Of a stretch of DNA of 64,000 nt, positions 3,101 through 64,000 are shown one piece after another; positions within the stretch are counted from its first letter, which is position 1, and the number at the start of each line of letters is the position of its first letter. Position numbers and translations under genes: made by a program. The DNA is from Gigantopelta aegis. Its lineage: Eukaryota; Mollusca; Gastropoda; Neomphalida; Peltospiridae. The stretch spans positions 37,960,492 through 38,024,491 of the forward strand of contig NC_054701.1 in NCBI RefSeq assembly GCF_016097555.1. Reading direction: 5' to 3'. The notes under the pieces were generated by a model, which was given only the letters and a program-made list of their open reading frames with translations, did no database searches and had not been told where the DNA came from.

Positions 3101-3955
3101 AGTTTGGGCAGTCATTACAGCCTTAGATGAAATCAAAGATTCGATTGTATCCAAATTTATTATTTTTACCAACTCACTTTCGTGTCTCCAAGCTTTACGC
3201 ATTATGAAGCTGGACCATCCCTTAATTGGTGATACGAAAGTGTGTCTTTTTATCCATTGCCAATAAAGACATTGTATTTTGTTGGGTGCCCAGCCATGTT
3301 GGCATCAGGGGTAATGAAAAGGCAGATTCAGCTGCCCAGTCTGCTTTGGATTTGCCTCATGCCAGGGTTGGTGTGCCGTATACTGATTTTAAATATAGTA
3401 TTAACCAATTAATTTTTTCGTCGTGGCAACATGATTGGGACGGTGCGGTTGCGAACAAGCTTCGTGCTACCAAGCCAGTCTTGGGACAGTGGCCGTCCTC
3501 CTACAGACAGTGCAAGAAGGATGAAATAGTATTGTGTCGTGCTCGCATCGGTCATACATATTTTTACCCATTCATTTATCTTGAAGAAAGATCATCCACC
3601 TCAGCGTGTGCATTGTCAGTGTATTCTGAAGGTTCGCCACATTTTGGAGGAGTGTAAGCATCTGAAAATATATTTTTAGTCAGAAAAATGTGATGTAATC
3701 ATTTCGATTCCACCCAGAATTTGTTTTACAATTTTTACGTGATAATGACTTTTACATTAAATTTTAATTTTATATATCTGTGATATTTGTATTTTTTGCA
3801 CAGTTCTTTACACTGTGTTTTTATTTAACTATTGAATTTTTATATTGATGCGGTTCATCATTTAATGTTTTGCATTTACCATAGTTTGACACCCAATAAC
3901 CGATGTATTTTTCATGCTGGGGTGTCGTTAAACATTCATTCATTCTTTTCGATTA
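158..3955 (+). mobile_element. Decayed LINE (I/Jockey-superfamily type) with endonuclease, RT and RNase H
   Basis: Translated pieces in order give an apurinic-type endonuclease (VCLQES near 205-235; an FNGYHTLWG block near 505; GSDHFP near 725), a linker rich in basic residues, a reverse transcriptase (VPQGNILS near 2010; the catalytic box reads YVDN near 2105, where YADD/FADD is usual) and a C-terminal RNase H (YTDGSRDG near 2990; VPSHVGIRGNEKAD near 3285). RNase H after RT is typical of I-type LINEs such as I and Nimb. Several frameshifts and stops (for example at 1408 and 2252) break the frame, and active-site Asp residues read Asn in both RT and RNase H, so it is dead. The element is truncated at about 160, inside the endonuclease. 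The 3' end carries a conserved tail (GACACCCAATA, then GGTGTCGTTAAAC) and an (ATTC)n terminus near 3940. Confidence 0.85.
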
Positions 3956-5345: not shown

Positions 5346-5517
5346 CTTGCTCCGCCGTGCCTGTTCATGTAAAGAAAAAACTTGAACTTTAACTTGTTCA
5401 CTGTCCCATTATCTGATAACACACACGGAAGTATTTCCAGTTGGACGGGGATTTTCCCTTTCAAAGCTACGAAAAAACCCAAACCTGACAACAAAGAAAA
5501 CAGAAAACAAAAACAAT

Positions 5518-8500
5518 ATGTCGGCCTTGTCGTTTGAAGGTTTGATCGGGAGAGGAGGATTTGCTGCCGTCTACCTTGTAAAAGACACGAGCGACGGAGA
5601 TCAAGTAAATATACAAGAGTTTTGTTTACATGTCGGTAAACTGTATTCATACGCAGTTTTGTCCTGTATTTGTCTACTGTACAAGCATACGTATCCATTA
5701 CAGTGATTACTGCCAGAGTTATTGAACGGAAAAGACGTATTTTCCCGGAACGCCCGTGCTCTCCATTCTAGAGCTTTCCAATTGTACAACTTTTATTTGG
5801 CTAATTTTAGTTGAATCTTTTTAAAGACTTAATCGCTGTTATAAAGTTTGATATTACTAGGCTTGGTGTATTTACTGGAGTTTTATTTGTGTGGTGGTTT
5901 ATGAACGATCGTTAACTAAACGGTGTTGATATACAAAGTGGCTATATATACGATGGCCGTGTATATAGCCTCCGCTAACGCGAGCTGGCTATATACACAG
6001 CAAAAATGTATATATGGGCGGTAAATAAATATTTGATTGATCCATATTTCCGAATCATCTGGAACAGGAGGAATACATACTAAGCACAAATAGGTAGCGG
6101 AGGCTATACACACGGTCTCTGATACAGACTGGGGGAGCGACAGAAACCTCTTCTCATGATTTACAACTCTCAACATATTGGCCAGACTACAATGTGGCTC
6201 TCAGACGTTTGGCTGTGAACCTACCAGTCTTCTCAACAAACCACTTAATTCAAAATCAAGCTCTTATAATAATTGGTAGAGTATTTGTCTGCATGCCCAT
6301 AGATAGTCTGCATGCTGAGTTGACAGTTCCTTCCTTGCTGGTTAGGAGACAAGCTCATTGTCTCAAATACTGGTTAAAGGGGCATTCCTGAGTTTGCTGC
6401 AATTTTTAATACGTTATCAACTAACAGAGACTTTTTAACGATTGTAATTACATATCAAATATATTTTTCTGCATAATATATTAGTAGCTGTATATTAAAC
6501 GTGTTTCTGGTCGTTCTAATATTTGTATTAGGTTAAATTTCATTTTATTTCCTAATCCAGTTTAGGCTTCTTACAAATATTAATATCTATGGTTTTCCAT
6601 CAAACTCCTGACGGGCGTATCATGTACCTCACCGGTACTCTTGTTTCATTATTATTAAACATAAAATATACTTAGTGAACTGAAAAAAGATTAAAAGTAA
6701 ATATCAAAACAGTAACTGTACCGTTATTATTACAAGGGATGACAGCTTATTTATTGTTGAACCGTAGCTATGGTGCAGTGTGCGTGTTTTATTTTCAGTA
6801 AAATGTTCAACATACACTCCTTCTAGTCACTTGAAGTGTTATGGTCGGCCTGATGACGAGATATTTGTAAATATACATGTACATATATAGAAACTCAAAC
6901 TTTACCAATTACTTGGTTGTGGGACGGGGAGGGATGGAGGGGGCATTCAGTATTGGTGACAGATTTCCTGATAAAAATTATGACGTTATTAAAGAAAACT
7001 TTTTAAATTTTATATCACATTAAATATATTCTGACACTTTGATGTAATATAATTAAAAGATAAAGATTGCACTGGCACGTCACTGCAGACTGACTATGCT
7101 GTACATGATAAATTGTCATCCCTTTACAACCCCATTGTTCTTGATCGTGCACGTGTCATTCGCGTGTTAACTGTTAGGTCACTTTGTAAACAAAACAAAT
7201 AACAAACTCCTCATCAGATTTATTTACAATTCAGATTTGGAAACATGTTAACGGTATAATTAACTTGCAAAATGCCGTGGACAATATTTTTACCTCAATA
7301 TTTTTATTTATTTATTTATTTTTCATTTACTTTTTTTTTTCTTCTTTTTTTTTTGGCCGTGGTCATTTTCTTATTTGCAGAGGTTGGATACATATTTGTA
7401 ATTTTGTTTTATTTCTGCAAATCATCAGGTATAAAAAATAAAATTCACATTTTCCTCAAATATAATTTGTCAACGTAAAGGAGGGGACAATTAAGACCAT
7501 TTGGCCTGGTATGCGTTTTCAACGATATATAATGCACATTATTGCTTAATATCAACAAGTATAATCATATAGTTAATTAATAAAACGGTTAAATGTGACG
7601 GCTATGATATATAACGGGCGCAGCCATTTTGTACCATCCCATTGAATACGCCCTCTGGCGAGCTGGTGGTTACGTAATACCTAACGTGTCACGTCAGGAA
7701 TTAGTCTTCGAACTAAAGAAACGAAACATACCAGATTTTTGCGAATGCATCGCAATGTTCTGTAATAATAGCCATCCCAGTAAACCAGGAACAATTATAT
7801 ATTGTTTTTCAATACAAAATAAACCACCATTATCAAAGTCTTGAAGTAACTGTATTATGGTTTGTACATAAATTAATCCATGTACTGAAATAATAATCGG
7901 AGTGTTTTCTTGTTTAATTGGTCTTTCTCTCCGTGGCCTGTACCTGTGGTTCCTGATTGGCAGGTGTATATTTAGACGGTCCCCAGACACTGTGTCTAAA
8001 CACACTAAAAAGACGTGCCTCTTTTATTAAGATCACAGGGTATTGTGTGGTAACCGCACGGATACCCCTCCAATCGTAATGGGCATTATCAGCCATCCTG
8101 TTTTATTACTGTAAGTAATTCTGTAAAACCCTTGATTAAGTAGACTTTTCCATCTAAAATCACAAAACTTACCAATTACGTCGTCCCCCCCCCCCCCCCC
8201 CCCCTCCCAAAAAAAAGAAAAGAAGAAAAGTATCACTTGGGTATCGTGAGTGGTCGTTTTAGCTCGAACCTAGGGTACCTACCAATAGGCCTAATAATAT
8301 GCATTTTTTCTTTGGATTTTTTAAAAAAGAAAAATATTGTAACTCCGTTTCGTTCTATTGATGCAAATTGAAATATATTTAGTTAAATAGTTTATTATAC
8401 TATCAAGTCATATATGTTGTTTTACAAGTCAGGTTGATGAAAGCGAAGCGCCTTGTCGTAAATTAGAGCGTTTGTTTACATTGTGGATTGAAGAGATGGA

Positions 8501-11500
8501 CGGAGCTAACGTCATTTCGCCCCAAGCTATACCACCGGTCGTCACAAAAACGAAACAAAATGGCTGCCAGTTAGCAGGAATATTTTTTTTTTATTATTAA
8601 CTCTAAAATTACGCGTTTTTCATTTGTTAAAGTGTCAGTATGTGTTGGTGGTCCGGGTATGCATCTTTCCAACACATAAGGCTCTTGTTTTGAGTTGACC
8701 CTACCTTTAAGGATATGCTAAAATGACAATACAAACCATGGCCCCCCTAAATTTTTGCGATCGTTATAATTTTATTATATATTTTAATTTTGTTACAATC
8801 TCCCTCCAAACCTCCCCCAAAGTTCCCTTGGCATTCCACCTCATGTCACTGCTCCCCCCCCCCCCCCCCCCCCCCCCCAAATGGATTTTCTGGATCCACC
8901 ACTGTTCATTTAAGAACTTACCACATATATTTTTGGTTGAAGACTATATGACTCCTAGGGAGGGAAAAAACATGGATTATTTGTCTTTAATTCATCGTTA
9001 TAAACACAACGGTAAGCACCCTTTAACTAAATTGATTGCCGCAAAGTGTATAGATGGAAATGTTTTTAATTATATCAATTTAATGAGATATATGTTAAAA
9101 ACTTTTTCATCAGTATTGGACTAACTTGTTTGGTTGACGTTCCTGTAAGGTTGTAGTGCGCCAATCGGTGACATCAAAGTGTTACGGCCCACTTGGCGTT
9201 CTAATGGGACTTAGTGCTTTGATATTTACCAAGATAGTTTTAACCATATGGGTAACATATAGAGAATAATACATGAGTGGCCGTTAGATACCATTTATCT
9301 CACAACGAGTTGTTTTAAAATGTATCTAACGAGAGAAAGCCAGTTTGATACGTTTTTAAACCAATTTACATATCCTCAAAAAAACAAAATTATATACCTA
9401 AAAAACCAGGTTTTTAGCACATTTCAAATTTTTTTTGACTAAAATATATTTACAACGCTTTGCACTTGTAGCTGATTTACGCGTCACAGACACATGATTG
9501 TCAGGTTAACTATACGTCACAGTGTAATCTATTTCCATCGTGTTGTTTTTCATTGGATGTATGGCATTGGTGACCTGGTCATCGTCTAAGAACAGCTTGC
9601 CGTTTGTCTTGAAATTGTTAACAAACGTACGTGTGTAAACAGGTTATGTGTTGTCATAAATAACGCACGGTGTTCTCACCAACGGGTGTGTAAGAAAATG
9701 TATTTATGTCATATCTTCAATCTACCGATAATGCAATATATAACTATGATATGATACATAACGTGTTTATTCCACAGTATGCTCTCAAAGTTGTGGACCT
9801 CGGGAAATTTGGATCCGATTTGTTGGAAAAGGCCTTACAGGAAGTTGAATTAATGAAACAACTCGATCACAACCACGTGGTTCAGTACATCGCATCATAC
9901 AAGAAGGGCACAAACATCTTCCTGTTCACAGAGTACTGTGACGGCGGGGATCTGTCTCAGTTTCTTAGAGAATCTAAGGAACAACTACCGGAAGAACTTG
10001 TCGTCTGTTGGATGTGGCAGATGTCGTCTGCACTTTGGGTAAGGATCTTTCCAAAATAATATGAGGGTTATGTGACAGGAGGTCTTTTTTGGCCCAACAC
10101 CACTAATAAGAAGAAATTAAATAATGTGGCATTATTTGTCTTTATGTTTAACTCATAACGTCATGTATTAATTAAGAATTGACCGCAGTTATTTTTTGGT
10201 ATACACAATATGACTCCCCGTATAGTTTAGGGGCCCTTAAATATTACACAATCATATTTTGGTCAAAATTAGATACCCCTCCTACCCCCATGTAACGCTC
10301 CGTAACGCCAGACAATACGACCCCCAAATATTACGTAACGCTTGGAGACGCACGAACCCTCCCCCCCCCCCCCCCCCCCCCATATACACACTTTCACTAA
10401 TAAGTCATTTGATGAATATTATTTTATTTTAAGAGAGAGCACAAAACAAATTTTTATGTAATATAACTGAGCGTTACGTAACGCTGGTCAGTAGACCCAC
10501 CTGTAACGCCGCATAACGTTTGGACCTACACCTACTGAGCCCCTCGAGCGTAACGTAATATTTGAATGGCCCCTTAAACGTTTTATAGGTTTTATAGTAT
10601 TACTCCGATGTATTGCATGTTAGTAGATTAATATATTATTTAGATGGCTACACAATCAGTATAGTTCCGTTAACTATATTATTCTTTTTTATTTTTCGTG
10701 TCATCAGTTTTAATTTTATGTCAAAATAATTATTTACAGTACATGCACTCCATGGACATCATTCACAGAGATTTGAAACCAGAAAACATCTATTTGTCGA
10801 AAGACGCCAATCTTAAACTGGGTGACCTTGGCATTGCCAGGTAATTGCTTTTAAAGGGAATCGGTCAGGGATTATGTGGCGTCAAATATATAAACTATTA
10901 AACAAGTTTTCATTCATGTTAATCGAAAAGGGAAAAATTAACCACCGTCATATTTGTTTTATATTCTAAATTGTATTCGCTTATTACCAATGTTATACAT
11001 TATCAGTGAAATCTTTACTCAGTTCGACTTTACATTACGTGAAATTGCATTTCCGGGTTAGCGAAACATTTTAAGAGTCTATAAATTTGGCACCAAACAT
11101 CGATGGTCATTTCTCTCTACTGTTACGGATTTAATGTATTCTGTATTGATGAAATGGTTGTTTCACGTGGTGCTGTCCACCACTGTGACACTGTGTAACA
11201 TATGATTTCAGGCTGTTGTCTTTGTATATGTGCTAGTGCCCTATGTATTATAGTAAATGTATACAGTTGATAATTTCTACTAGTCCAGATAAAACATTCA
11301 CTAGCCAGGATCGAGGGCTAGTGCATTTGTCGAACCCTGTATACAGTATCTACTCTTTCCATATTCTCTGTTTCATAATCAAAGGACGGAACATTTTCTG
11401 TGCATATTTGCTCCAGACATAGACATAGCTGTCTTAGCTGTTGAAACAGTAATTGTAGTTGAGGGATGTGAACTGTGGGTGGTGTTTGGCCGTGGTAGAA

Positions 11501-17447: not shown

Positions 17448-20400
17448 AGATTTACACGTGCGTTTGCTTTATGTCTAAATGTGTGTAGTTATGGTTTCGA
17501 CTCGGTAAAACACTATTAACAGTCTGTTGATCTATTTATAGTTGCATTTTATTTTCCTACTTACAGAATTTAATTCTACCTGAAAATTACAGTGACGAAC
17601 TCAAAAACCTTGTCATTGCTATGTCGGATACAGACGTAGACGTCAGACCGAGTGCAGACGAAATCATTTCAACGTCACCAGTTAAAGAATACGCTTCTTC
17701 GAAGAAACCCGTTAGTATACTTGAGTGTTCTCTCTTTTGTGTGTGTGTGGGGCTATACACGTGTACCCAATTGTTGCTACTTATGCTAGGCTTAGACTAT
17801 TAACGGTTACGAAGGAGTTGGTCAACTTGACAGTTCCGTTGTAATTTACGACGGGTGCGCTCAGCTTAACGACTAATCAGTCGTAGGAGTTGTATACGAC
17901 GAGAATCGAGTTGTAAGAGCGTTCAGACTAGCAACTGGACAGTCGTGGACGTCGTGAGATCAACGAGTTGACCAACTCCGTCGTGACAGTTGGTAGTCTG
18001 ATACTAGCATTACTCTGACAAAAATAATAAAGAAAGCTTTACACAGAGCTGTCAACCAGTAAATGTTTCAAGTCGTGAGATTCACTCTATAGGTCTGGTT
18101 CAGGGGATGCTGTACCTAGTTAGGTAGGGGCTATCATGGGGGCGAAGGTTCCATTCACCCACACCCAATCCCACCCCCCCCCCCCAAAAAAAACAAAAAA
18201 AAAACCCACAAAAAAAAACAAACACTATTATTACTGTTTATTAGATATATTTTAAGGTCTCTGATAGCAATACGTTTCACATGTGAAAAACAATACAGCA
18301 ATACTGACAATAACCAAAACAAGATTTTATAACCTCAACCTCAAAGGAAGCAAAATGTTTTCTTTGTGTCTATCAGGGTCAATTTATTAGTAATTTTAAA
18401 CTACCTCTTGTGACTGTCTATAAAGACAAACAATTCAAATGTGATATGTGTTTAAAATATACTAGTATACGAATCGGTCTGATTTAAAGCACAATTCTAC
18501 TTTCTCGCATCATGATGCCAAACTGTTATGCAAGAAGTGTCAACAAGAACAAAACATGTTTATCGAAAGAAACAAATATAGCATATCTGAAAAAGTTGAC
18601 TTGATATGCATCATTTCTGTGAAATGTCCATTAAAGTCGCAGACCCTAGTTTCAACCCCTGAAAATGGACACTAAGTTTGGTTAACCTAGCCCCCTGTAA
18701 GACATCGCGATAAGATATAACACAGTTTGTGACGTTGAAACGGAGAAATACCCGTAAAAAGTAGATTAGAGCTCTTCATAACTGCTACTTTTCAGAGAGA
18801 CGAATTTTTTTTAAAACAATATGATAAATTTGCATTTCATGGATTTACACTGTCTTTTAACTGACCTCTTGCATTTTATATTGATGTTGTTAATCACTTC
18901 ATTTTTGCATTTGCCATAGTTCGACACCCAATAGCCGATGTATTTTTCGTGTTGGGTTTATCGTTAATCATTCATTCATTCATTCATTCATGGATGCATT
19001 TCATGGTATTAGAAACAACTGAATGACCCTAAATCCAACAATTGTCTTATTTCAGTTTTTAAAAACAGCTATAATTGTGAAAATAGCGTCGTAGTGTTTC
19101 TTCTTCTTCTTCATTCAAATTTGTAAAAATTGTCTCATACAGATATTCCGATCTGAGTCATGAATTGGTCAGTTGTTTGCAGGTCCTCCCTGGATCCCCA
19201 GAGCTTCTGATGTAGGTCTGTTCCATGCGGCCAGAAGTGGCTTCTCTCCGAGTTGTGTAGTGGACATTCTTGTAGGATATGTTCTGGTGTTTGCAGGCCT
19301 GTACCACATTGACAGTCGCTTGTGTGACATATATTGAGCTTGTGAAGATGGAAGTTTAGGCGGCAGTGGCCTGTGCGAAGTCTGAAGATTGTAGTCTGGG
19401 CTCATCTTTCAAGTGTCTCCCATGTGCCATAGTTTGTCACCCTTGTAGTGTTTTCCATCTTTCCTTCTGTTTTCACCTTGTCTTGTTTCCTGAATCATCT
19501 TGCTTCCACATTTTGCTAGTGAATCTGCTTTTTCGTTTCCAGCAATGTTGCAGTGTGCTGGGGTCCACTGCAAAGATGTTGTTGTGGTTGTTGATAGCTG
19601 TGACAGTAGGGTGTAGATTTTTCGTGATGTTGTGTCTTCTGGAGACGAGAGCTTTTGGAGTACTGATCTGTAGTCGGTGAAGATTACTGCATGTGATGGT
19701 GGGAAGAGTTCTTGGCTGAGAATCACTAGTGCTTCATGGATTGCTTTTGCTTCTGCTTTAATGTTTGAAGAGAGTGATCCAGTTGGTATAGATTTGGTAT
19801 TTCCATTTGGGAATTTTATGTAGATTCCCCCTCCTCCGTTTTTGATGGCTTCTTCTGCTGATCCATCAGTGTATATATGTGTCCAGATTGATTTGTTGAA
19901 GTTTTTTCTATGTGTTCCAGAGTCAGGTTTTTCAGTATATCTGGTGTCATATCTTCTTTCCTGGTGATGCCTGGGATGTCAAGAAAAATTTAGAATTTGA
20001 CTGTTGGGAGTTGCCATACGTTCACATTTGTCAGTGGTTCACACTGTTTCGGATATTTTGAGATGACGTCAGCATGTTTTCCGGTTAGGTATTGTGTTAT
20101 ATGTCTTGTACGTTTCAGTTTCAGTCTGTTTCTGCAGCATTCTTGCATGGATTTGTGCGCTGGGTGATCTGGGAGTCTTTTTAACTTCTCGTTGTGTATT
20201 AGAAGCTTGGTTTCTCGTCGCTCTTCTAGGGACTGAAGACAACAGGTCTTTTCCATTCCATTTATTGGTGTTGTTTTTATTCCGCCAGTTATGATTCACA
20301 GACCTGAATTCTGGACTTTATTTAGTCTAGAGGTGTTGCCCTTTGCTGCTGTTGTCCAGGATTATGATCCGTATTCCATGATTGGCCTGGCTGATCCAGT

Positions 20401-23400
20401 ATAGACTTGTTTTAGAGTTTTGCTGTTATTTCCCCACTTGGTGTCTGCCAGTTTCTTCATGATGGAAAGTCTCTGTATGGGTTTAGATTCCATCTTCTGG
20501 ATTTGGTCTCTCCATGTTAGTCACTTGTCAAGCTTGACTCCTAGATATGTTGGTGTGTCAGTCTGTGGAAGATCCGTGTCCTCAGTATACAGTCTGTATG
20601 TTTCTGTCTTGTTTGAGAGGGAAAAACATTTTGTGACCGTTTTGTTGCCGTTGATCTCAACTTTCTAGATTTTGAACCACTCATTTATGAGGTTAAGGGT
20701 ATCTTGTACTCGGCACATCGCAACGTTTAGTTTCTCAGCAGAGCTTCAGATGGCAAGATCATCTGCATGGAGAGCGTGTGATACATACATGGAGAAATTT
20801 GTTGACACATCATTTATGTTGATGTTGAACAGAGTTGGAGATATAACACCTCCCTGTGGGACACCTTCGTGGGATCTTGATTAGGTTGCCTTTCATCCCA
20901 TCCAGGAATACTCTTCCTGGCCTGTCCTTTAGGTAACTGCTTATCCAGTGGTACATGTCTTCACCTATGTTGTGGCTTGTCAGCTTCTTAAGCAGTCCAT
21001 CTTTCCATACCTTGTCAAAAGCTTTTGATAGATCTATGAATGCAGCAATTGTTTTTTTTCTTGTCCTGGAAGGCATTTTCTATTTGTTGTGTGAGGTATA
21101 GTAGCTGATCTTCTGTGCTATGATGTTTCATGAATGCTGACTGGTGCTTGTTAAGAATGTTCTTCTCTTCAAGGTACCAACATAGCCGAGTGTTGATAAT
21201 TCTTTCCAGCGTTTTACCGGGGGAGGTGAGGAGACTGATGGGCCTGTAACTGCTTTTGTAATTTCTATTTTTGCCTTTCTTCAGGATAGGGATTATGATT
21301 GCATCTTTCCATTTTCCGGGGAAGCATCCACTTTTCTAGGAGAGATTGAATATTTCCAAAAGCTTCTTTTTTGCCACTTGTCCAAGATTGGTGATCATCT
21401 CATTTGTAATTCTATCTTTTCCTGGGGCTTTCTTCTTTTTGAGTTTTTTTATTGCTTGGTCAAGCTTATATTCTGTTATTTCATCCATCAGTCATAATGT
21501 TTCAAAAATAGGGTCTGTTACTTTAATCATCAATCGTTTTAGTTCGGTTTTGGTTTTGGTTTTTCATTAATTTAAATTGTTCATTTGATTCAAGTTTATA
21601 TCAGATAATGGTTTATCCTTTTCACGACAACAACAACAGTAATAATAATAAAACGTACATGATTATTAAATAACATAGAGCCTAGTTTATCGTGGGTTTT
21701 GAGGTTTTTGTTTGTTTGTTTGTTGTTGGGGTTTTTTGCTGCTGTTAATTTTTCACCACGTAAGACAAATTTGATAATCAGTGCTATAAATCAGTGTTTA
21801 TTTTGTGGTTTCTAAAATTGCGAATTGTATCCGATTTATGTCTGGCAATCTCTATTCTAATATAGGATTGCTGAATACAAATACATATGTTGTACATCTG
21901 AAAAATCACACTGGGGTGGGGGTGTCGTAAAATGAGCGTCTACAAAATGATTATTGTTCAAAATACAGTGAATCGAAATAAAATATCGTGTTTTGTTTTC
22001 GTTCTTTTAACTACATAAACATTACTTTGTTTTTGTTTGATTTGTTTCTTTTTTTTAAAATTGCTTTTCTTTGTTTCGTTGGGGTTTTTGGGGGTTTCTT
22101 TTTTGTTTTTGTAAAAAAAGAATCTTCTTTTTTTTTCTTCTTTTCTGTTGTTGTTGATGTTATTGCTTGATAGCAAAATGGAATCATCATAAATGTCTAA
22201 TAATTTTCTTTAGTGCCCAACCCATATTCCTCGAATAAAACAATTATTTATGGCTATAACACTCGTTCCGAATGGGAGCAAAGAATGGAGAATTGAAAAA
22301 ATGAGAGGTAATTGGATGTTACTATAAAAACTGAGAAAACAACCGTCATGAGCAGAACTAATTTCCTACTAACCTGCAAAAGGCGTAGCGCCCATTACGC
22401 ACAGTACGCATGTGCGTAATGCAAACAAATCCGGGAATAGGTCGAGGCTGTCTGTAATTGTTGTGTAAAATATCCTCTTAAAATTGACTCAAAAAAAGAA
22501 AGAAAAAAAATGCCTCAGAATGCATCTACAGGCTTCCTAAGTTTCGATTTTTTTACGGGGTGGGGGTGGGGGGGGGGGGGGGGGTGACACCCCGAATCAT
22601 CCCGCTCGGACACACCTTCGGCGTGCGTAATACTAAAAACATTTTGTCTACGCCCTTGCCTGCTAATCCAATGTCATGCACAGAATTTATTTCCTAGTGA
22701 CATGATAACACATAGCAACGGCAAGGTTATCATGCTAGTAACGGAGATGTTATCTAGTCATAACACACCGGATTATCAGGTAGTGGTTAATGGGTCACGG
22801 AAAGCATGGCTGTGTGATAACAAGCCAATATCACAAGACAGTAACCAGTTTATGTATCCTGCAATCCACATAAAACGAAAAATTAATTAAATGAACCATT
22901 TTATTTCACAAGTTTGCCGTTTTCCGGAGTAATATGCCCACACGTGTTGAAAAGCCTGTCGCCTATAATATTAATACACCAAAACAAAATAGTTCTTAAA
23001 TAACAACAATTTATTTTTTACTTTTTAAATGAAAAATTGTCTTGAAAACGGTTTCTAAAAATCAAAACAATCAACGGGAAATAAAATAATAAGCAACTTT
23101 GAACAATACAACATTCCTTTGCTTGTTATAGTAGTTCCATCCTAAAAAGCTATATTTTTAGTCAGTGGCCAAAAACATCGAAATTTATCAAGTCATCATA
23201 TCTTGACAATACATATAGTGATTGCAGGATAAAGTTTAATATATTTATTGTTTAAATATTATTCTGAAGTCGTTTTTTTTAAAACGTATTTTAACATGAT
23301 TCGAACTGGACTCTGATAAGGCAGGGTAAAGTGAGGTAGTATACTTATATAAGCAGGGCAGTACCCAACTTGAAATAACTGGGGGTGCAGTTAAAATAAT

Positions 23401-28342: not shown

Positions 28343-29934
28343 ATATTAATTTACATTTAAAATGATCCAGTACAGATCAATTACACAATATAAAAGCTGT
28401 GATTAATACACTCATTTTATCTTCAAATATATACTCTTCAAAAGAAGAAACGCAAAACCACATTGTCGTAACATTTGGAGAATTGATTTAATTATTGAAT
28501 GGTGAGTCCGATAATTACCAAATGTTGCAGGATTGTTCACAATTCACTCTAGTCCATTGTGAGTAAGTGATAGGACACACCACCAAGGTCAAGGTCATCT
28601 GGAGTCAATACCGGGTGTGGCCTCCGCGTGTGTTGACAACTGCCTGGCACCGCCTGCCCATTGAAGCAACCAGAGTACGGATGACGTCCCGGGGGATGGT
28701 GGCCCACTCGGCCTGCAAGGCTGCTGCCAGCTCGGGCAGGGTCTGGGGCTGTGGTTGTCGCTGTCGGAGGCGTCGGTCCAACTCGTCCCATAGATGCTCA
28801 ATTGGGTTCAAATCCGGTGATATCGATGGCCAAGGAAGGACATTAATGTTGTTGTTCTGTAGGAAAGCCGTTGTGAGACGTGCTGTGTGAGGCCTGGCGT
28901 TGTCATGTTGGAACACTGCGTTGGCGTTGGCCATAACTGGAACGATGTGTGGCCGGAGGATCTGGTCAATGTAGCCCTATGCATTCAGGTTGCCCTGCAC
29001 GTGGACCAGGTCAGTTCTGCCAGTGTGTGAAATGGCTGCCCACACCATGACACTACCCCCGCCGAATCTGTCCACTTCCTGCACGCAGTTTGCCGCATAA
29101 CGTTCACCACGACGCCTATACACGCGACATCTTCCATCGTGACGTCAGAGCAGAAATCGGGACTCGTCACTGAACCACACCTGTCTCCATCGCAGTTGAG
29201 GCCATTGTCGATGAATCAGGCACCACTGCAGTCGGAGTCGACGGTGTTGTGGTGTTAAGATGACACCTCGATTTGGACATCTGGCACGAATTCCTACCTC
29301 ACGTAGGCGGTTCCGTACGGTCTGGTCGGATATCCTGCGCAAACCTGGTATTGCTGCGGCTGTGGAGGTGGCAGTAGTCCATCGTTCCCGAAGGTGGCGT
29401 ACCCGGATGTAGCGGTCCTGCCCGGGGGTAGTGACCCGTGGTCGACCGGATCTACGGAGGTCACGTGTTGATCCATGTTGCTGGTAACGGTCCCACAGTC
29501 TGGAGATGGTGCTTGGGGACACATGGAATGCCCTGGCAACGGCCGTTCTGGATTCGCCTGCGTCTAGTCGGCCGATGGCATTGTTTCTCTGCGGTTCACT
29601 GAGACGTGGCATGTCCTGGATTGTCAACTGTCGGCCAGATACAGAGGCCAGGCAAGCGAACACCCTGCACTTTTATACTGTCGGTGTTCATGCTGCACGT
29701 GCAGACAACGCACGTGCAGTGGTGACATGGTTTGCACGTGGCTGCGTTTTTGCGAATATTCACATTTTGGAACTTTATTGTACAGTAGCTGCGTTTTATC
29801 GAATGTAACCGTGGGAATGTGTTTGGGACATGCAATGACCTTATATTCACAAAGCATGAACCGGTAGGAAACATAAAATCGGAGTTATAACCCATTTGTA
29901 CCCTTTTGCGTTTCTTTTTTTGAAGAGTATATAT

Positions 29935-35786: not shown

Positions 35787-37870
35787 CAGCAGCCTTGACT
35801 ATTAATGAAATCCCAGTCATGTAAAGCATGGGCACACAGGCGTAAATCAATGGCAGCCCTGCCTATTGATGGTATCCCAGTCATATAAAGCATCTGCACT
35901 CCTGCTTAAATAACCGGGAGTACCCATTAACAACATCCCAGTCATATAAAGCATAGGCACACAAGCTCAAATCACTGGCAGCCCTGCCTATTAATGACAT
36001 CTCAGTCATGTAAAGCATGGGCACACAGGCTTAATTTACCTGCAGCCCCGCCTATTAATGACATCTCAGTCATATAAAGCATGGGCACACAGGCTTAATT
36101 TACCTGCAGCCCCGCCTATTAATGACATCTCAGTCATGTGAAGCATGGGCACACAGGCTTAATTTACCTGCAGCCCCGCCTATTAATGACATCTCAGTCA
36201 TGTGAAGCATGGGCACACAGGCTTAATTTACCGGCAGCCCCGACTATTAATGACATCTCAGTCATGTGAAGCATGGGCACACAGGCTTAATTTACCTGCA
36301 GCCCTGCCTATTAATGACATCTCAGTCATGTGAAGCATGGGCACACAGGCTTAATTTACCGGCAGCCCTGCCTATTAATGACATCTCAGTCATATAAAGC
36401 ATGGGCACACAGGCTCAAATCACTGGCAGCCCTGCCTATTAATGACATCTCAGTCATGTAAAGCATGGACACACAGGCTGAATTTACCTGCAGCCCTGCC
36501 TATTAATGACATCTCAGTCATATAAAGCATGGGCACACAGGCTGAATTTACCTGCAGCCCTGCCTATTAATGACATCTCAGTCATATAAAGCATGGGCAC
36601 ACAGGCTGAATTTACCTAAGCATGGGCACACAGGCTTAATTTACCGGCAGCCCCGCCTATTAATGACATCTCAGTCATGTGAAGCATGGACACACAGGCT
36701 TAATTTACCGGCAGCCCCGCCTATTAATGACATCTCAGTCATGTGAAGCATGGACACACAGGCTTAATTTACCGGCAGCCCTGCCTATTAATGACATCTC
36801 AGTCATGTGAAGCATGGACACACAGGCTTAATTTACCGGCAGCCCCGCCTATTAATGACATCTCAGTCATGTGAAGCATGGGCACACAGGCTTAATTTAC
36901 CGGCAGCCCCGCCTATTAATGACATCTCAGTCATGTAAAGCATGGGCACACAGGCTTAATTTACCGGCAGCCCTGACTATTAATGACATCTCAGCCATGT
37001 AAAGCATGGGCACACAGGCTTAATTTACCGGCAGCCCCGCCTATTAATGACATCTCAGTCATGTAAAGCATGGACACACAGGATTAATTTACCGGCAGCC
37101 CTGACTATTAATGACATCTCAGCCATGTAAAGCATGGACACACAGGCTTAATTTACCGGCAGCCCTGCCTATTAATGACATCTCAGTCATATAAAGCATG
37201 GGCACACAGGCTCAAATCACTGGCAGCCCTGCCTATCAATGACATCTCAGTCATGTAAAGCATGGACACACAGGCTGAATTTACCTGCAGCCCTGCCTAT
37301 TAATGACATCTCAGTCATGTAAAGCATGGACACACAGGCTTAATTTACCGGCAGCCCCGACTATTAATGACATCTCAGCCATGTAAAGCATGGGCACACA
37401 GGCTTAATTTACCTGCAGCCCCGCCTATTAATGACATCTCAGTCATGTGAAGCATGGGCACACAGGCTTAATTTACCTGCAGCCCCGCCTATTAATGACA
37501 TCTCAGTCATGTGAAGCATGGACACACAGGCTTAATTTACCTGCAGCCCCGCCTATTAATGACATCTCAGTCATGTGAAGCATGGGCACACAGGCTTAAT
37601 TTACCGGCAGCCCCGACTATTAATGACATCTCAGATATGTAAAACATGGGCACACAGGCTTAAATCACTGGCAGCCTTGAATATTAATGGAATCCCAATC
37701 ATGGACACACAGGCTTAAATCACCAGTAGCCCTGAATGTTACCGACATCCCAAAGTAAGGCCCAGTCATATAAAAGCATGGGCACAGAGGCTTAAATCAC
37801 TGACAGTCCTGTCTACAGATGGCATACCAGTCATGCAAAGCATTGCCACACCGGTTTAAATCACCCTCAA
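35787..37870 (+). repeat. 64-bp minisatellite, about 32 units
   Basis: The unit contains CCTATTAATGACATCTCAGT, CATGTGAAGCATGGGCACAC and AGGCTTAATTTACC; successive CCTATTAATG starts are 64 bp apart (36051, 36115). Units in the middle (36000-37640) are almost identical and fall into variants (GTGAAG or GTAAAG; GGGCAC or GGACAC; TACCTG or TACCGG). Units at both edges are clearly diverged. One unit is cut short near 36615. There are no spacers, so it is not a CRISPR array. Confidence 0.95.
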
Positions 37871-40376: not shown

Positions 40377-43300
40377 TTATCTCTTCTTGTCCTCCTTGCA
40401 CACAATGATGTATCTCTGCGCCACCATCAGAGGAGGTGAGTACCCATCTGGGTAAGACGTGTCTTCAAACAGCACCGAGTAGTCATCCTGTGGCTGTCAA
40501 CAACACAAATATATTAAAAAGTAATAACACAAAAAAGAGAGAAATGAATGAACGCTTTAATACAATGAAATTTAAATAACACAGAAAAAGTATGCATCAA
40601 ATGGCTGCAATGGAAGAAGAAAAAGAAAATTAGTTTTAAAAAAAAAAAAATACTACTGTATATTGCCGTGTATTAGCCGACTCCTTGTATAAGCCGACCT
40701 CTTAGTTTGACCCTAAATATCAAGTATAAAATCATCGGCCTCATGTATAAGCCGAAGTCATCTTTTGTCCAGTTGTACATTGTATTGGTTTCAATAATAC
40801 TGTCAACAGACAGACTTGTGCTTTTCTTTTTCATTGTATTTTTTCCCATTTAATTATTACAGACACGGTAATCGTCATCGCAATGCTAATGTCTTCCATG
40901 CCATGCAAAAATAATTTAGCACCGATAAATCATAACAGGAAAATAAACAATTCAAGCTGTAACAACATATCACTGCACATAAGTAATTAAATTATTCACT
41001 GGACAGCAAATAATAAACTCATTAAGGCATGTTTAATCTCCGTTTTCCCCTCCACACAGAAAAACGATTCTGTGGTCCAGGGCTGTTGTTTACACAAAAT
41101 TGTGTAATCCAATCAAATAAGAGATTACAAAATAGACAGAGGTGTCAAACAAAGATGGCGGAACACGTTTTTACCATTAAAATGACAATAAAACAAGTAA
41201 TTTTTATTATTATTCATCAAACTATTAATGCATTCAAGAACAAAAAACTACATAATATTGCATGATGGAGTGTATTATTTACATTGTGCACAAATTATTG
41301 TTACATAAGCTGTGAAAGGCTCTACGGGTCTGATCAAAATTTGTAAGTCGGGGTTGGGAGTGTTTTCGATCGGAATTTTATGAATTTGTTGCCTCTGTGT
41401 ATAAGCCAACTCTCTTCTTTTGGAAAGTATTTCTAGACTTCAAAAGTCGGCTAATACACGGCAATATACGGTAGTTCTTCCCATCCTCCATGAATATTGT
41501 TTTTTGGGTTTCGTAAATAATTTCAGTTTAATCTGCTAGAAGAAGAAAAGCAAATTTAGAAAATAATCCACTCAGAAATAAATAAGTTGTAATACAAGTA
41601 TACTGCAGTAGAACAAAAAGACGTTTTCTGATGGAAAGGACTAGATGCTTTAGAAAGCTTCACAGTAATAAAAAAATATATATATAATGAAAAAATAATT
41701 GATTAATCTTACCCCGGCTGGTGATTCATCGACAAGAGCTCGATAAAAACATGTAGTTTGTGGATATAGAGCTAGAACAAGCTGGAAAAAAATAATAATA
41801 TCAAAACAAGTATTACTTTTGTCCTCTAATTTATAAGGAAAAAAAAGCAATACACAAACGTGAGTAAATACTTTGCTTTTGTTAACCTAAGTATTTCATT
41901 TGTTACACAAATGGAAGATTTTGTGAGTTAATTAATAAAAGGATTCAATATTAAACGAATGGGGAAGGAAAAGGACTACACTAATTTGGAGGTCAGTGTA
42001 TACAATGAAAAGAAATGAAGTCTCTAAATTAGTCGATAGGTTTGACCTTGGTAATCTACAAACTAGAATAATATAAATAAAACTGTAGGATGGGACTCAC
42101 AATGGTTATACTAATGAAACTAACATACTGTTCTCTTAGAAAATAATGCTTCACTGTAGAGTGTGACTCACAATGGTTATAATAATGAAACCAACATACT
42201 GTTCTCTTAGGAAATAATGCTTCACTGTAGGGTGTGTCTCATAATGGTTATAATAATGAAACCAACATACTGTTCTCTTAGGAAATAATGCTTCACTGTA
42301 GGGTGTGTCTCATAATGGTTATAATAATGAAACCAACATACTGTTCTCTTAGAAAATAATGCTTCACTGTAGAGTGTGACTCACAATGGTTATAATAATG
42401 AAACCAACATACTGTTCTCTTAGGAAATAATGCTTCACTGTAGGGTGTGTCTCATAATGGTTATAATAATGAAACCAACATACTGTTCTCTTAGAAAATA
42501 ATGCTTCACTGTAGGATGTGGCTCATAATGGTTATAATAATGAAACCAACATACTGTGCTCTTAGGAAATAATGCTTCACTGTAGGGTGTGGCTCATAAT
42601 GGTTATAATAATGAAACCAACATACTGTTCCCTTAGGAAATGATGCTTCACTGTAGGGTGTGACTCATAATGGTTATAATAATGAAACCAACATACTGTT
42701 CCCTTAGGAAATAATGCTTCGGGGTCGGTTTCAGGATTAGCTTTCCAGATCGGCAGTGGAACAATCCGCCGCCGGTTTATTGTGTGGCGTCTGAAATATA
42801 AATATGTAACTATCATAAAATCAAATAAAACAGTTAACTATACAGTTTTAAGTTTTAACTCGCATTTTTTCTTTTTTTAAATGAAGATTTACACAAGTAC
42901 CAGGTCGGTAAATATCAACCATAACTCGAAACAAGAACAGGAAATTTAATAATATCCTTTCAAAATGTTTCACTACCTTTAAGAGCAGCAAATTATTTGT
43001 CAAACAAGGGGAAAGATTTCAAAAAGAAAAGAAAATCATAGATGAAAATGACAATGGATCAGAAATTTTGCAAGGTCTTGAAAAGTAGAAGGTACCACGT
43101 CATTAAGTTAAAACATATTAACCACCACTCCAAACAAGAATAGGAAATATAACAATAACAACACTTTATTACATACCTATTCAATCTTATTATAGCGATA
43201 AAGACACTTTAAAACTGTGTGATAAACGTATTTCGTATTGCACATATATGCGATCTGGACCGGTACTTTTAAACGGGGAATTCCTTTTTATTTTTACTGC

Positions 43301-46300
43301 AGTTAGAGCCTTTTATTTACTGACGTCATACATGATTTACAAATTACATCACATCGTATTTGAAACATTACACAAGGCTGCCAAAGAGTACGATTCTTAA
43401 TGTTAAGCAAATCCATGAAAGGAGTTTCGATAATAGATTTAACAAAGTGTTGTTACGACGTTAAATTAGGAAATGTTTTTGTAAAACATAAAAGAAGGCA
43501 TGTAATAAATACAGAACTTCACATACGTTGTTTTCGCTTCCTATTTATTGCACTCATTTATTTTGCGAAAGAACATACTACTTGACTGCTACGCAGTCTT
43601 GTGGTATATATTCTTTCGCAAAATAAACTTGTGCAATAAATAGGAAGCAAAAACAATGTATGTGAAGTTCTGTAGATATATCACCTGGTTTAACCATGCT
43701 ATAAAAAATTTTCAAAAATTAAAAATCAGGGAAGAAAATTACTTGAAAAATAAATAAATCAAGAAACATTACAGGGTCTTGAAAAGCTCACAGTAAATGA
43801 GTTTTTTTCATTAAAGAAGACAAAAAATTTCAGGTAGCAATAAAATCTGGAATTCCATAAAAATCCATAGATTTTTTTATCTCTGACAAAAGAGTAACTT
43901 CACAAACAACTTACTCTTTTCCCTCCTCGGCATCTATGTCGTCAACTTCATATTTGTTCGTTGTTGGATTAAAGGAAACCACCTCGGCCAATATCCAGTT
44001 TTCTTCGCCGTCCTGACCTTTAACCCTTGCAGCCACTTTGTCTCCAGCTTTAGCAACATAGTTGTTGTCTGCTGGCACTGCTCCACATAACGGCGGCAGG
44101 CTGTGGACAACAAACACAATAACAGTCCAACTTATACTTCCTGTTGTTGTTTTCAAACTTGATAAACCAAGCCAAGCTAATTCTACATGATAAGAATTAT
44201 GCATGGCAATCATATTGTGTAGGAATCTTTATATTCTTTTTTATGAACATGCATATACTTTTAAATTGACATATACTTATAATATCAATGGGTAATAAAC
44301 AAAACTGGGTATGTTCAAAATCATGATTTTCAGAATTTTCTATCTCTTCAAATTACATAATGATGAACATTAACAGAATCAGTTATGTCCACTCGGTATG
44401 AAAATAAAAATATTCCATTATTTAAAAAAAAAAAAAAATATTGTTAATTTAGGGAGGGGATACATGCATATAATATGAGAGATGGAATGTTATATTATTT
44501 TGATCAATAAAATAATTGCTTTCTTTTCAGATCTTTCACAAAAAAAAAGTAACAATAAAACTTGTTAATCTAAAAACAATTACTGGTTGTCAGCCCTTGA
44601 TATGTACATTTTTTTTAAAAAGAGCTGAGAAAAATAATATTTATGTTGAAATTTTACCAATTATCGGCATACACCAATCAATCAAATTTCGATTATACAA
44701 TCGGTTAGAATTATATGAACTTAAAATGGATTTGGATTGTTAGAATCATTTACCTATTGAGGTATTCACTAGGATAGACCATACAAATCACTGACTTTTC
44801 CTCTAGTACCTGTTCAGTCTCTGGGTTTTTTACATACACTTGACAATAAGCCCATCCATATTTCTATCCTTAAAGCAGAAGACTCCTTGGAAGATTTAAG
44901 ACTGTTGGGATGTCTGGGGGTTTTTTTTCAAATTTATTTACTTTATTATAGTCGGTCAACAATACACCATAACTGAACATACCTTTCTCCTGGCTTGCTC
45001 ACCCACAATGGCAGAGTGACGGCATTCTGTTGTAGAAGGTTCATAAGAACACCTCTTCGCATTATTTGCTTAGGCCGGTCAGAATCTCCTGTGATAAAAT
45101 ACATCAAACATTTTAATATAACGATTTACTTAAATTTCGGTAACCGGTTATAAAAAAAACCTGAACTACAGTTCAAAGCAGCACCGGTGACTTGAAAACA
45201 GAAAGGAAATCTGCATTCAATATTAACATATAATGTAATAATACACTTTAAGCTAAATATACTGAAATATCTTATTTCATTTTTGTTCTTGTATTTTATC
45301 ACATAAATGCATACCATCTAGCACTAACCTGGAAAAGAATAACCTAGTGCACGACTGTCACCTCAGTTTGTGACACAGTAAAAAGAACATAAATGTTTTG
45401 TCCCAAAAGAAACTCACTGCTGGTTATGTTTAAATTATATGTGATTTTAAACTCCAGTACACTACTTGGAAATATTTGCTAGCAATGTTTATAATAAAAA
45501 GTGTCCTTAATCTTTTTCATACACTTTGTCTAACTGTAAAACATAAAATAACTTTAGAGACGAGCCCGATGTTTACAGAACAAATATACAGTAAGCACCA
45601 TTACCAAATCTTCTGTTTTGTGAAGCTCCTTTGATTTCACCAATCTTGTCCAGAGCCTTTCGTAATAATCTACAATTTTTCAAATAAAATGTGCATTAAA
45701 TAAATACATTGCAACATAAATTTATCAATGTCCATTAAAATAATAAATGCAGTACTTAGTATCCATTTAAAGTATTACCACCAAATCATTGACTTATTGG
45801 TTACAATAAAGTTAGTAAAGGAAAGAAATTGTTATTAAAAGTAGGTGTCTAAGAGTTGAAGTTTGTGAATACCATCTTTAGGTTAGGCAAAAAACAAAAG
45901 TCACTTCATAAAACCTAACTCTTAGGATTATGGAAATGATGTTCTAACTTTAATGACTGTCCAAAAATAGCTTGTACAAAAGCTGCTAATTTAGCTGGTT
46001 TCTGTGCTTCAATGAATCCCAGATTTCAGATTTTGGATAGGAAGCATAAGGTTATGAGATTGAATCCCAATATACTTATATTGTAACACAATTATGATTC
46101 CAGGAAAATCCAAAACAATATTCAATGCCTGGATAATTAACAGGTACATGTATTATAATGGGTTACAGCATTGATCCCCCATTAACATTTTCACTATTTC
46201 AATTAGTGTTTAATGCTATATAATAAAGGTTATCGTAAATGCTATGTCTGAGGAACACTGCATATAAAGAAGGAAATGTTTTATTTAACAACGTACTCAA

Positions 46301-62778: not shown

Positions 62779-64000
62779 TACTCTTCAAAAGAAGAAACGC
62801 AAAACCACATTGTCGTAACATTTGGAGAATTGATTTAATTATTGAATGGCGAGTCCGATAATTACCAAATGTTGCAGGATTGTTCACAATTCACTCTAGT
62901 CCATTGTGAGTAAGTGATAGGACACACCACCAAGGTCAAGGTCATCTGGAGTCAATACCGGGTGTGGCCTCCGCGTGTGTTGACAACTGCCTGGCACCGC
63001 CTGCCCATTGAAGCAACCAGAGTACGGATGACGTCCCGGGGGATGGTGGCCCACTCGGCCTGCAAGGCTGCTGCCAGCTCGGGCAGGGTCTGGGGCTGTG
63101 GTTGTCGCTGTCGGAGGCGTCGGTCCAACTCGTCCCATAGATCCTCAATTGGGTTCAAATCCGGTGATGTCGATGGCCAAGGAAGGACATTAATGTTGTT
63201 GTTCTGTAGGAAAGCCGTTGTGAGACGTGCTGTGTGAGGCCTGGCGTTGTCATGTTGGAACACTGCGTTGGCCATAACTGGAACGATGTGTGGCCGGAGG
63301 ATCTGGTCAATGTAGCCCTGTGCATTCAGGTTGCCCTGCACGTGGACCAGGTCAGTTCTGCCAGTGTGTGAGATGGCTGCCCACACCATGACACTACCCC
63401 CGCCGAATCTGTCCACTCCCTGCACGCAGTTTGCCGCATAACGTTCACCACGACGCCTATACACGCGACATCTTCCATCATGACGTCGGAGCAGAAATCG
63501 GGACTCGTCACTGAACCACACCTGTCTCCATCGCAGTTGAGGCCATTGTCGGTGAATCTGGCACCACTGCAGTCGGAGTCGACGGTGTTGTGGTGTTAAG
63601 ATGACACCTCGAACTGGACGTCTGGCACGAATTCCTACCTCACGTAGGCGGTTCCGTACGGTCTGGTCGGATATCCTGCGCAAACCTGGTATTGCTGCGG
63701 CTGTGGAGGTGGCAGTAGTCAATCGTTCCCGAAGGTGGCGTACCCGGATGTAGCGGTCCTGCCCGGGGGTAGTGGCCCGTGGTCGACCGGATCTAGGGAG
63801 GTCACGTGTTGATCCATGTTGCTGGTAACGGTCCCACAGTCTGGAGATGGTGCTTGGGGACACATGGAATGCCCTGGCAACGGCCGTTCTGGATTCGCCT
63901 GCGTCTAGTCGGCCGATGGCATTGTTTCTCTGCGGTTCACTGAGACGTGGCATGTCCTGGATTGTCAACTGTCGGCCAGATACAGAGGCCAGGCAAGCGA
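62779..64000 (-). mobile_element. Tc1-type DNA transposon, copy 2, open transposase frame, cut by window end
   Basis: It starts with the same terminal repeat as the copy at 28431 (CTCTTCAAAAGAAGAAACGC). The minus-strand frame 62952-63968 encodes 338 residues without a stop: N-terminal paired helix-turn-helix ([27 protein letters not shown]), GRPR linker near residue 60, catalytic Asp in VWFSDESRF, Asp in [11 protein letters not shown] and Glu in [11 protein letters not shown] (DD34E). The frame remains open beyond this ATG to the window edge (ASVSGRQL), and copy 1 has an ATG further upstream, so the true start may lie outside. A 6-bp deletion relative to copy 1 (near 63270) keeps the frame. 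Confidence 0.93.

Follow-up and report, generated by a model that had tools for sequence, protein, structure and literature searches.

The stretch of Gigantopelta aegis DNA analysed here, hereafter the window (64 kb, GC content 37.5%), carries on its minus strand a gene for SGF29, the SAGA-associated Tudor protein. Four exons, denoted A to D, join in one reading frame of 154 residues up to a stop codon, with 109 residues of exons A to C matching the SGF29_Tudor family (Pfam PF07039) at E=1e-31. A solved SGF29 homologue also aligns with the product at E=7.6e-51, and the aligned block includes the junction of exons B and C. The intron between these two exons contains a tandem array of 71-bp units, the first of which begins inside exon B and runs through its splice donor. 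The features of the gene and of the array are as follows, with the basis of assignment in brackets.

43915..44100, minus strand: SGF29 exon A, start of the Tudor domain (translation, splice signals and Pfam PF07039)
42697..42790, minus strand: SGF29 exon B, 94 nt; the repeat unit begins with its final 24 nt (alignment to the solved SGF29)
42691..42696, minus strand: genuine exon B donor, GTATGT (the resulting protein aligns to the solved SGF29 across the junction)
41782..42696, minus strand: intron B–C, 915 nt, or 347 nt minus the eight extra units
41713..41781, minus strand: SGF29 exon C, 69 nt (translation and splice signals)
40377..40493, minus strand: SGF29 exon D, coding portion as far as its stop codon (lower limit calculated from 38 residues plus stop)
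42082..42720, minus strand: array of exactly nine 71-bp units (TRF score 1124; register from unit alignment)
42650..42720, minus strand: array unit 0, made up of 24 nt of exon, GTATGT and 41 nt of intron
42082..42649, minus strand: array units 1 to 8, following unit 0 without gaps, each with a copy of the exon end and an intact GTATGT
42625, 42554, 42483, 42412, 42341, 42270, 42199 and 42128, minus strand: first bases of the decoy donors

Elsewhere in the window there is a long array of ca 30 units of 64 bp (35789–37753), together with the remains of a Tc1/mariner-like transposase (28605–29672, with DDE_3 and HTH_Tnp_Tc3_2 matches). An ORF antisense to these remains (28567–28890) recurs nearly unchanged at 62914–63237, and a second Tc1/mariner-like copy is therefore indicated there. 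Pfam matches on the ORFs tested also identify broken retrotransposon pieces at 388–3657 (endonuclease and reverse transcriptase) and 19409–21335 (RNase H). On the plus strand, a kinase exon is found at 9694–10056 (Pkinase, E=1.4e-14) within the region 5386–10059, and an ORF at 5386–5703 reads like the start of a kinase, with no Pfam match of its own. No Rfam family matches the window at gathering thresholds. Outside the window, a 119-kb contig (C711:69091–69577; 33% GC over the 6 kb read) holds another SGF29 gene, the introns of which are very short. By eye, one of them occupies the position of intron B–C, and the contig, which holds no repeats in common with the window, looks like that of a co-sequenced compact eukaryote.

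Structure and turnover of the 71-bp array

The sequence-only reading had described a repeat which starts at the end of an SGF29 exon, takes in the GTATGT donor and recurs eight further times in the following intron, and this observation is confirmed. The 71-bp spacing is exact throughout all nine units, and unit 0 is the genuine end of exon B, such that the array stands in register with the real exon boundary. Some details of the earlier description need adjustment. The part of the exon end that is shared with the repeat amounts to 24 coding bases rather than 29, the exon B bases upstream of these having no match to the unit, and the statement that most copies keep GTATGT was right as to the donors but too low in its count, since all eight extra copies are intact. 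The range first put on the repeat, 42061–42790, consists of the array with 21 bp of intron and the rest of exon B.

A search of the window with the core pattern, allowing up to three mismatches, gave nine matches, all of them inside the array (none in 100 shuffles of the window), and the window contains no further copies beyond 42082–42720. Nor do neighbouring copies exist in the window at the other six SGF29 boundaries tested (the acceptor and donor of exon A, the acceptor of B, the acceptor and donor of C, and the acceptor of D). When the 639-bp array was compared with the whole genome, consisting of 1,149,253,464 bases (1.149 Gb) in 5216 contigs, one matching place was returned by a search that skips very common words. 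A dispersed mobile element was rejected in view of this single genomic match. The array core also had no exact match among prokaryote genome contigs, a negative result that was expected.

The units differ from each other by 0–9 bases, with a mean of 4.0 of 71. Units 3 and 5 are identical, as are units 4 and 7, and unit 8 at the far end is the most diverged, with 6–9 differences. As read from the alignment of the units, these differences form the pattern of block-wise turnover with the edge unit left out. Within the coding part, unit position 19 is G in units 0 and 1 only and A in the other seven, and the copies of the exon end would read EALFPKGT, EASFPKGT, EALFPKST, EALFSKRT or EALFPKRT. Thus the last bases of exon B belong to the array as one of its copies, and variants could pass between them and the other units. 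In terms of variable columns, the exon part has 4 of 24, the GTATGT motif 0 of 6 and the remainder 7 of 41. The likelihood of six invariant donor columns by chance is appreciable (P 0.35), and preservation of the donor is therefore no evidence of function. Similarly, because the exon part is as variable as the intron part, nothing shows selection to keep the donors; indeed, a signal of selection for keeping decoy donors is absent both from the SGF29 units and from the 15 arrays pooled (see below).

Consequences of the decoy donors

The proposal that the spliceosome meets a ladder of near-identical donors is borne out at the level of sequence, insofar as the 9-mer ACAGTATGT (ACA|GTATGT) is identical at all nine donors and absent elsewhere in the window on both strands. 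Against the textbook donor, the genuine exon B donor has five of nine matches, whereas each of two neighbouring donors has six. The possibility that donors are hidden by RNA structure was rejected, as the fold of the array transcript has a z value of −0.79 and 3 of 20 shuffles were at least as stable.

Depending on which later donor is used, the exon would be lengthened by 71 nt or a multiple thereof. Use of the first would shift the frame and lead to a stop in exon C, and use of any of donors 2–8 would lead to an in-frame stop 39 residues beyond the true junction, in the form of a TGA at the second unit-to-unit joint. The same stop is reached if intron B–C is retained in full. With donors 3 and 6 the added length is a multiple of three (213 and 426 nt), yet both extensions carry the stop. 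Every alternative donor thus leads to a premature stop, such that none of the eight can lengthen the Tudor domain, and the suggestion that a later donor might add in-frame Tudor sequence is excluded for this sequence, all eight alternatives truncating SGF29. The usual rule for nonsense decay places the stop more than 50 nt before the last junction; here the stops reached from decoy donors 1 and 2 (k=1 and k=2) lie 59 nt and 91 nt, respectively, before the C–D junction.

The hexamer CTACAG precedes each of the eight extra copies of the exon end, giving the layout CTACAG|T + 24 nt|GTATGT, which is that of a potential 25-nt micro-exon. A ladder of micro-exons was rejected, as inclusion reads KGT followed by a stop in 8/8 copies.

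Boundary arrays at other exons

At first sight the array might be taken for a single oddity, a view which sampling of other exons does not sustain. The sample consists of 122 Pfam exon hits of kinases and myosin heads on large contigs, at which arrays of period at least 15 and score at least 80 that cross an end of the hit were counted. The large contigs include C1–C15, which are of chromosome scale, C1–C14 amounting to 960 Mb or 83% of the assembly and C15 to at least 43.7 Mb. The kinase set, which was exploratory, contains the 30 best-scoring of 136 rows with 40 further large-contig rows from lower down, taken with 11 intervening large-contig rows skipped, their sequence unviewed, and without reaching the last of the 136. 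Eight of the first 30 are on small contigs, leaving 62 large-contig hits. The myosin set was taken after the kinases and judged by the same rule, and it holds 60 of the 63 large-contig rows among 80 rows overall, the 17 small-contig rows and the last three large-contig rows being left out. Its exons are not all independent, in that some stretches overlap or share a gene, the hits L080 and L133 for example being ca 2.3 kb apart.

The kinases gave 8 crossing arrays in 62 hits and the myosin heads 7 in 60, where exon ends are approximated by the ends of the Pfam hits. One crossing (L062) was dropped because the Pfam hit had run past the exon end into an intronic repeat, which reduces the total from 15 to 14. 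The remaining 14 of the 15 span a splice boundary, as judged from sequence, and they are found in 13 of the 122 exon hits, or about one in nine. They are as follows.

Donor arrays: L025, L027, L080, L083, L102, L133 and L134
Acceptor arrays: L056, L060, L061, L113 and L135
Arrays on both sides of one kinase exon: L047 (G000:C6:3044400-3046400), with 10 copies of the acceptor on its upstream side and 13 of the donor on its downstream side, counting the genuine sites

The last of these exons accordingly has nine extra acceptor copies, eight of them with AG, and 12 extra donor copies. Arrays that stop just short of a hit were left out of the 15, namely four of the myosin set (L088, L098, L107 and L111, 2–9 nt short) and three of the kinase set (L048, L054 and L068, 10–23 nt short). 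A high prevalence of boundary arrays is thereby supported by a sample of two gene families, and the SGF29 array is apparently one of many in the genome.

The GT or AG dinucleotide is kept in 111 of the 132 extra copies in 15 arrays including that of SGF29 (84%, as against 82% for flanking dinucleotides), these copy counts coming from loose matching in which some copies are possibly counted twice (for the L047 donor array, 22 as against 12 extra copies by stricter matching). The fraction of decoys that keep the splice dinucleotide falls to 0/5 at L133, 5/10 at L027 and 3/6 at L056, a loss which is a possible sign that decoys are selected against at certain loci.

Two tests of placement were made. 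When exon intervals were re-placed at random within the fetched stretches, the kinases had 8 crossings with 4.5 expected (P 0.07) and the myosins 7 with 5.6 expected (P 0.32). When instead the arrays were re-placed and kept out of exon bodies, a strict count gave 8 with 4.3 expected for the kinases (P 0.06), 7 with 7.1 expected for the myosins (P 0.61) and 15 with 11.5 expected for the pooled sets (P 0.14, a count that includes L062). Allowing array edges up to 25 nt outside, the same test gave 11 with 6.2 expected for the kinases (P 0.03), 11 with 9.8 expected for the myosins (P 0.36) and 22 with 15.9 expected for the pooled sets (P 0.04, again including L062). Exon ends are not avoided by arrays, and a preference for exon ends is not established; the hint of an excess stems from the exploratory kinase set and is without support in the myosin set. 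Nucleation of arrays at exon ends is, in the same way, not established by these random re-placements.

With regard to the small contigs, the eight kinase hits on them have no crossing arrays and two arrays in all, which are too few to serve as a control, and none of the six such loci tested (L026, L028–L031 and L033) shares repeats with the window. Haemocyan_bet_s, the beta-sandwich family of mollusc haemocyanin, has five matches, on the small contigs C2783 (four) and C5121, and none on C1–C15. An 8-kb piece of C2783 shares repeats with the window and with other loci in 51 matches (75–91% identity among the six matches listed), from which it follows that C2783 belongs to the same animal.

Mirages and the origin of the array

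The amphioxus Adh paper (Canestro 2002) is said to have given ‘mirages’ their name. The term is used in Ebner et al. 2010, following the earlier Adh work, for tandem repeats across the exon–intron boundaries of amphioxus globin genes, and this report (PMC3087553) describes regular splicing that, by RT-PCR, seems undisturbed, differences of length between haplotypes and, cited from the Adh work, somatic instability. A further paper (PMC3902484) adds PGBD5 as a similar case and states that no aberrant mRNAs arise from the splice-site duplicates of Adh and troponin C. As far as these excerpts go, the amphioxus mirages (Adh3, BflGb6 and BflGb9, with PGBD5 and troponin C likened to them) share with the SGF29 array a unit of exon edge, splice site and intron; they occur at either exon end, like the arrays sampled here; their unit lengths (10–72 bp in Adh3, 150–160 bp in the globins, 60 and 108 bp in PGBD5) are of the same order as 71 bp; and they too have many copies with splice signals and an edge unit which escapes homogenisation, an effect described in the excerpts for BflGb6 (PMC3087553).

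In this regard, the tandem unit in SGF29 holds coding sequence, a splice site and intron sequence; the array is continuous and in register with the genuine boundary; its copies carry splice signals, ACA|GTATGT being present in 8/8 of the extra ones; and there is homogenisation inside the array (pairs 3/5 and 4/7) alongside a diverged edge unit 8. With these four defining features, the SGF29 array is a mirage in its anatomy, its splicing outcome being read by analogy. It differs from the amphioxus mirages in that its host is a mollusc and not a cephalochordate, the latter being the range of mirages in these papers and not part of their definition, and in that it has nine units with all donors intact. 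Moreover, the frequency of about one exon in nine sampled here has no counterpart in the excerpts of the amphioxus reports (PMC3087553, PMC3902484). Among the papers listed by searches of an open-licence library, no report of boundary arrays in molluscs was recognised. What is new here, as far as these searches go, is the mollusc host and the sampled frequency of boundary minisatellites, the kind being already known from amphioxus.

Other systems are more distant. One paper on intron gain by tandem duplication (PMC4974935) covers potato RdRp, vertebrate ATP2A1 and 24-bp repeats in fission yeast, which have in common with SGF29 the intragenic duplication of a segment with splice signals; the SGF29 duplicates, however, all lie inside an intron that was already there, and the coding sequence has not been interrupted by a new one. 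An intron gained in this manner was rejected for SGF29, as A–D form one SGF29 frame with the duplicates inside intron B–C. The tandem dual-specific splice sites of polyubiquitin UBC (excerpts of PMC10809524) likewise form a tandem array which repeats a splice signal, but in that gene the coding monomers are bounded by AGGT sites, the use of which yields isoforms of variable monomer number, whereas the SGF29 alternatives give stops. Work on competing donors and tandem repeats in human genes, as represented in excerpts (PMC5585400, PMC2812944), has only indirect bearing.

The SGF29 array is, with good probability, a neutral minisatellite, in which a boundary segment was duplicated and expanded to nine units and in which splicing takes place at the exon-proximal copy. 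A 71-bp segment straddling the 3′ edge of exon B would have been tandemly duplicated, seeding an array in which the usual turnover of minisatellites, by unequal exchange, slippage or conversion, could then raise the number of copies to nine, each step of expansion adding one more donor, as the unit holds both exon end and donor. The copy joined to the exon body would stay under coding constraint, and the other copies would drift with the intron. The spliceosome would pair the exon-proximal donor with the upstream acceptor, presumably because it is transcribed earliest and makes the exon as short as it can be (94 nt), and the remaining copies would be spliced out with the intron. If a later donor were used now and then, the product would be a truncated and probably decay-prone transcript and not a longer protein. 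Since the genuine site lies closest to the exon body in donor and acceptor arrays alike, a single ‘shortest exon wins’ rule, as inferred from anatomy and the amphioxus reports, would give normal mRNA. Slightly against a neutral origin is the looser pooled count of the placement test, which is a little above random (22 with 15.9 expected, P 0.04) and would not be expected from an indifferent process.

It is conceivable that the decoys act instead as poison donors, whose leaky use yields nonsense transcripts such that the array length tunes SGF29 output. The sharing of the genuine 9-mer by 8/8 decoys, all leading to a premature stop, would suit such a role, as would the weakness of the genuine donor relative to its two neighbours and, by the usual 50-nt rule, the distance of the k=1 and k=2 stops from the C–D junction, which is sufficient for decay. 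The donors, however, are no more conserved than the rest of the unit, in SGF29 or in the pooled arrays, similar donor and acceptor arrays in unrelated genes make a gene-specific role improbable, and the amphioxus precedents have normal mRNA in the excerpts (PMC3087553, PMC3902484). On balance we regard this role as unlikely. It is also very unlikely that the array is an intermediate in the gain of an intron or exon, each extra copy of the exon end becoming a micro-exon by virtue of its CTACAG. The acceptor–exon–donor layout in 8/8 extra copies would lend itself to this, and there is precedent in that a boundary tandem duplication created the potato intron (excerpts of PMC4974935) and that mirages have been proposed as a source of introns (excerpts of PMC3087553). 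Set against this are the immediate stop on inclusion in all eight copies, a first decoy intron of only 46 nt with no long pyrimidine tract by eye, and an exon B which is unsplit, with the SGF29 protein intact.

There is also a very small probability that one or two real units were inflated to nine during assembly. According to its report (PMC7895826), in which transcriptomes of tissues were produced as well, the published Gigantopelta aegis genome (1.15 Gb, 15 pseudo-chromosomes, 37.22% GC) is a polished wtdbg2 assembly of PacBio reads, and this origin leaves some room for such an artefact. The units, however, differ among themselves in an ordered way, and 639 bp is short by comparison with the 8000-base minimum read length of the assembly (excerpts of PMC7895826). 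Moreover, other exons carry arrays of many unit lengths, and with such parallels an artefact restricted to this locus is unlikely.

Returning to the neutral minisatellite, a more general proposition would be that in this mollusc lineage exon edges across the whole genome give rise to minisatellites or attract them, with thousands of exons having ladders of near-perfect decoys by extrapolation, with splicing obeying a strict ‘shortest exon wins’ rule, and with a possible link between the birth of arrays at exon ends and transcription or splicing. We consider this proposition unlikely.

Within the mirage class the SGF29 array on its own is ordinary. Taken with the sampled exons, it shows boundary minisatellites, known from amphioxus, in a mollusc as well, and it gives raw material for testing intron and exon gain. 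To our knowledge, the choice among identical competing splice sites has been studied mainly in built constructs. The genome of Gigantopelta aegis offers natural ones, with near-identical donors and acceptors in up to a dozen repeats and at both ends of exons, and would thereby provide a natural test of whether the exon-proximal site always wins, of how leakage depends on copy number and of what a genome tolerates.
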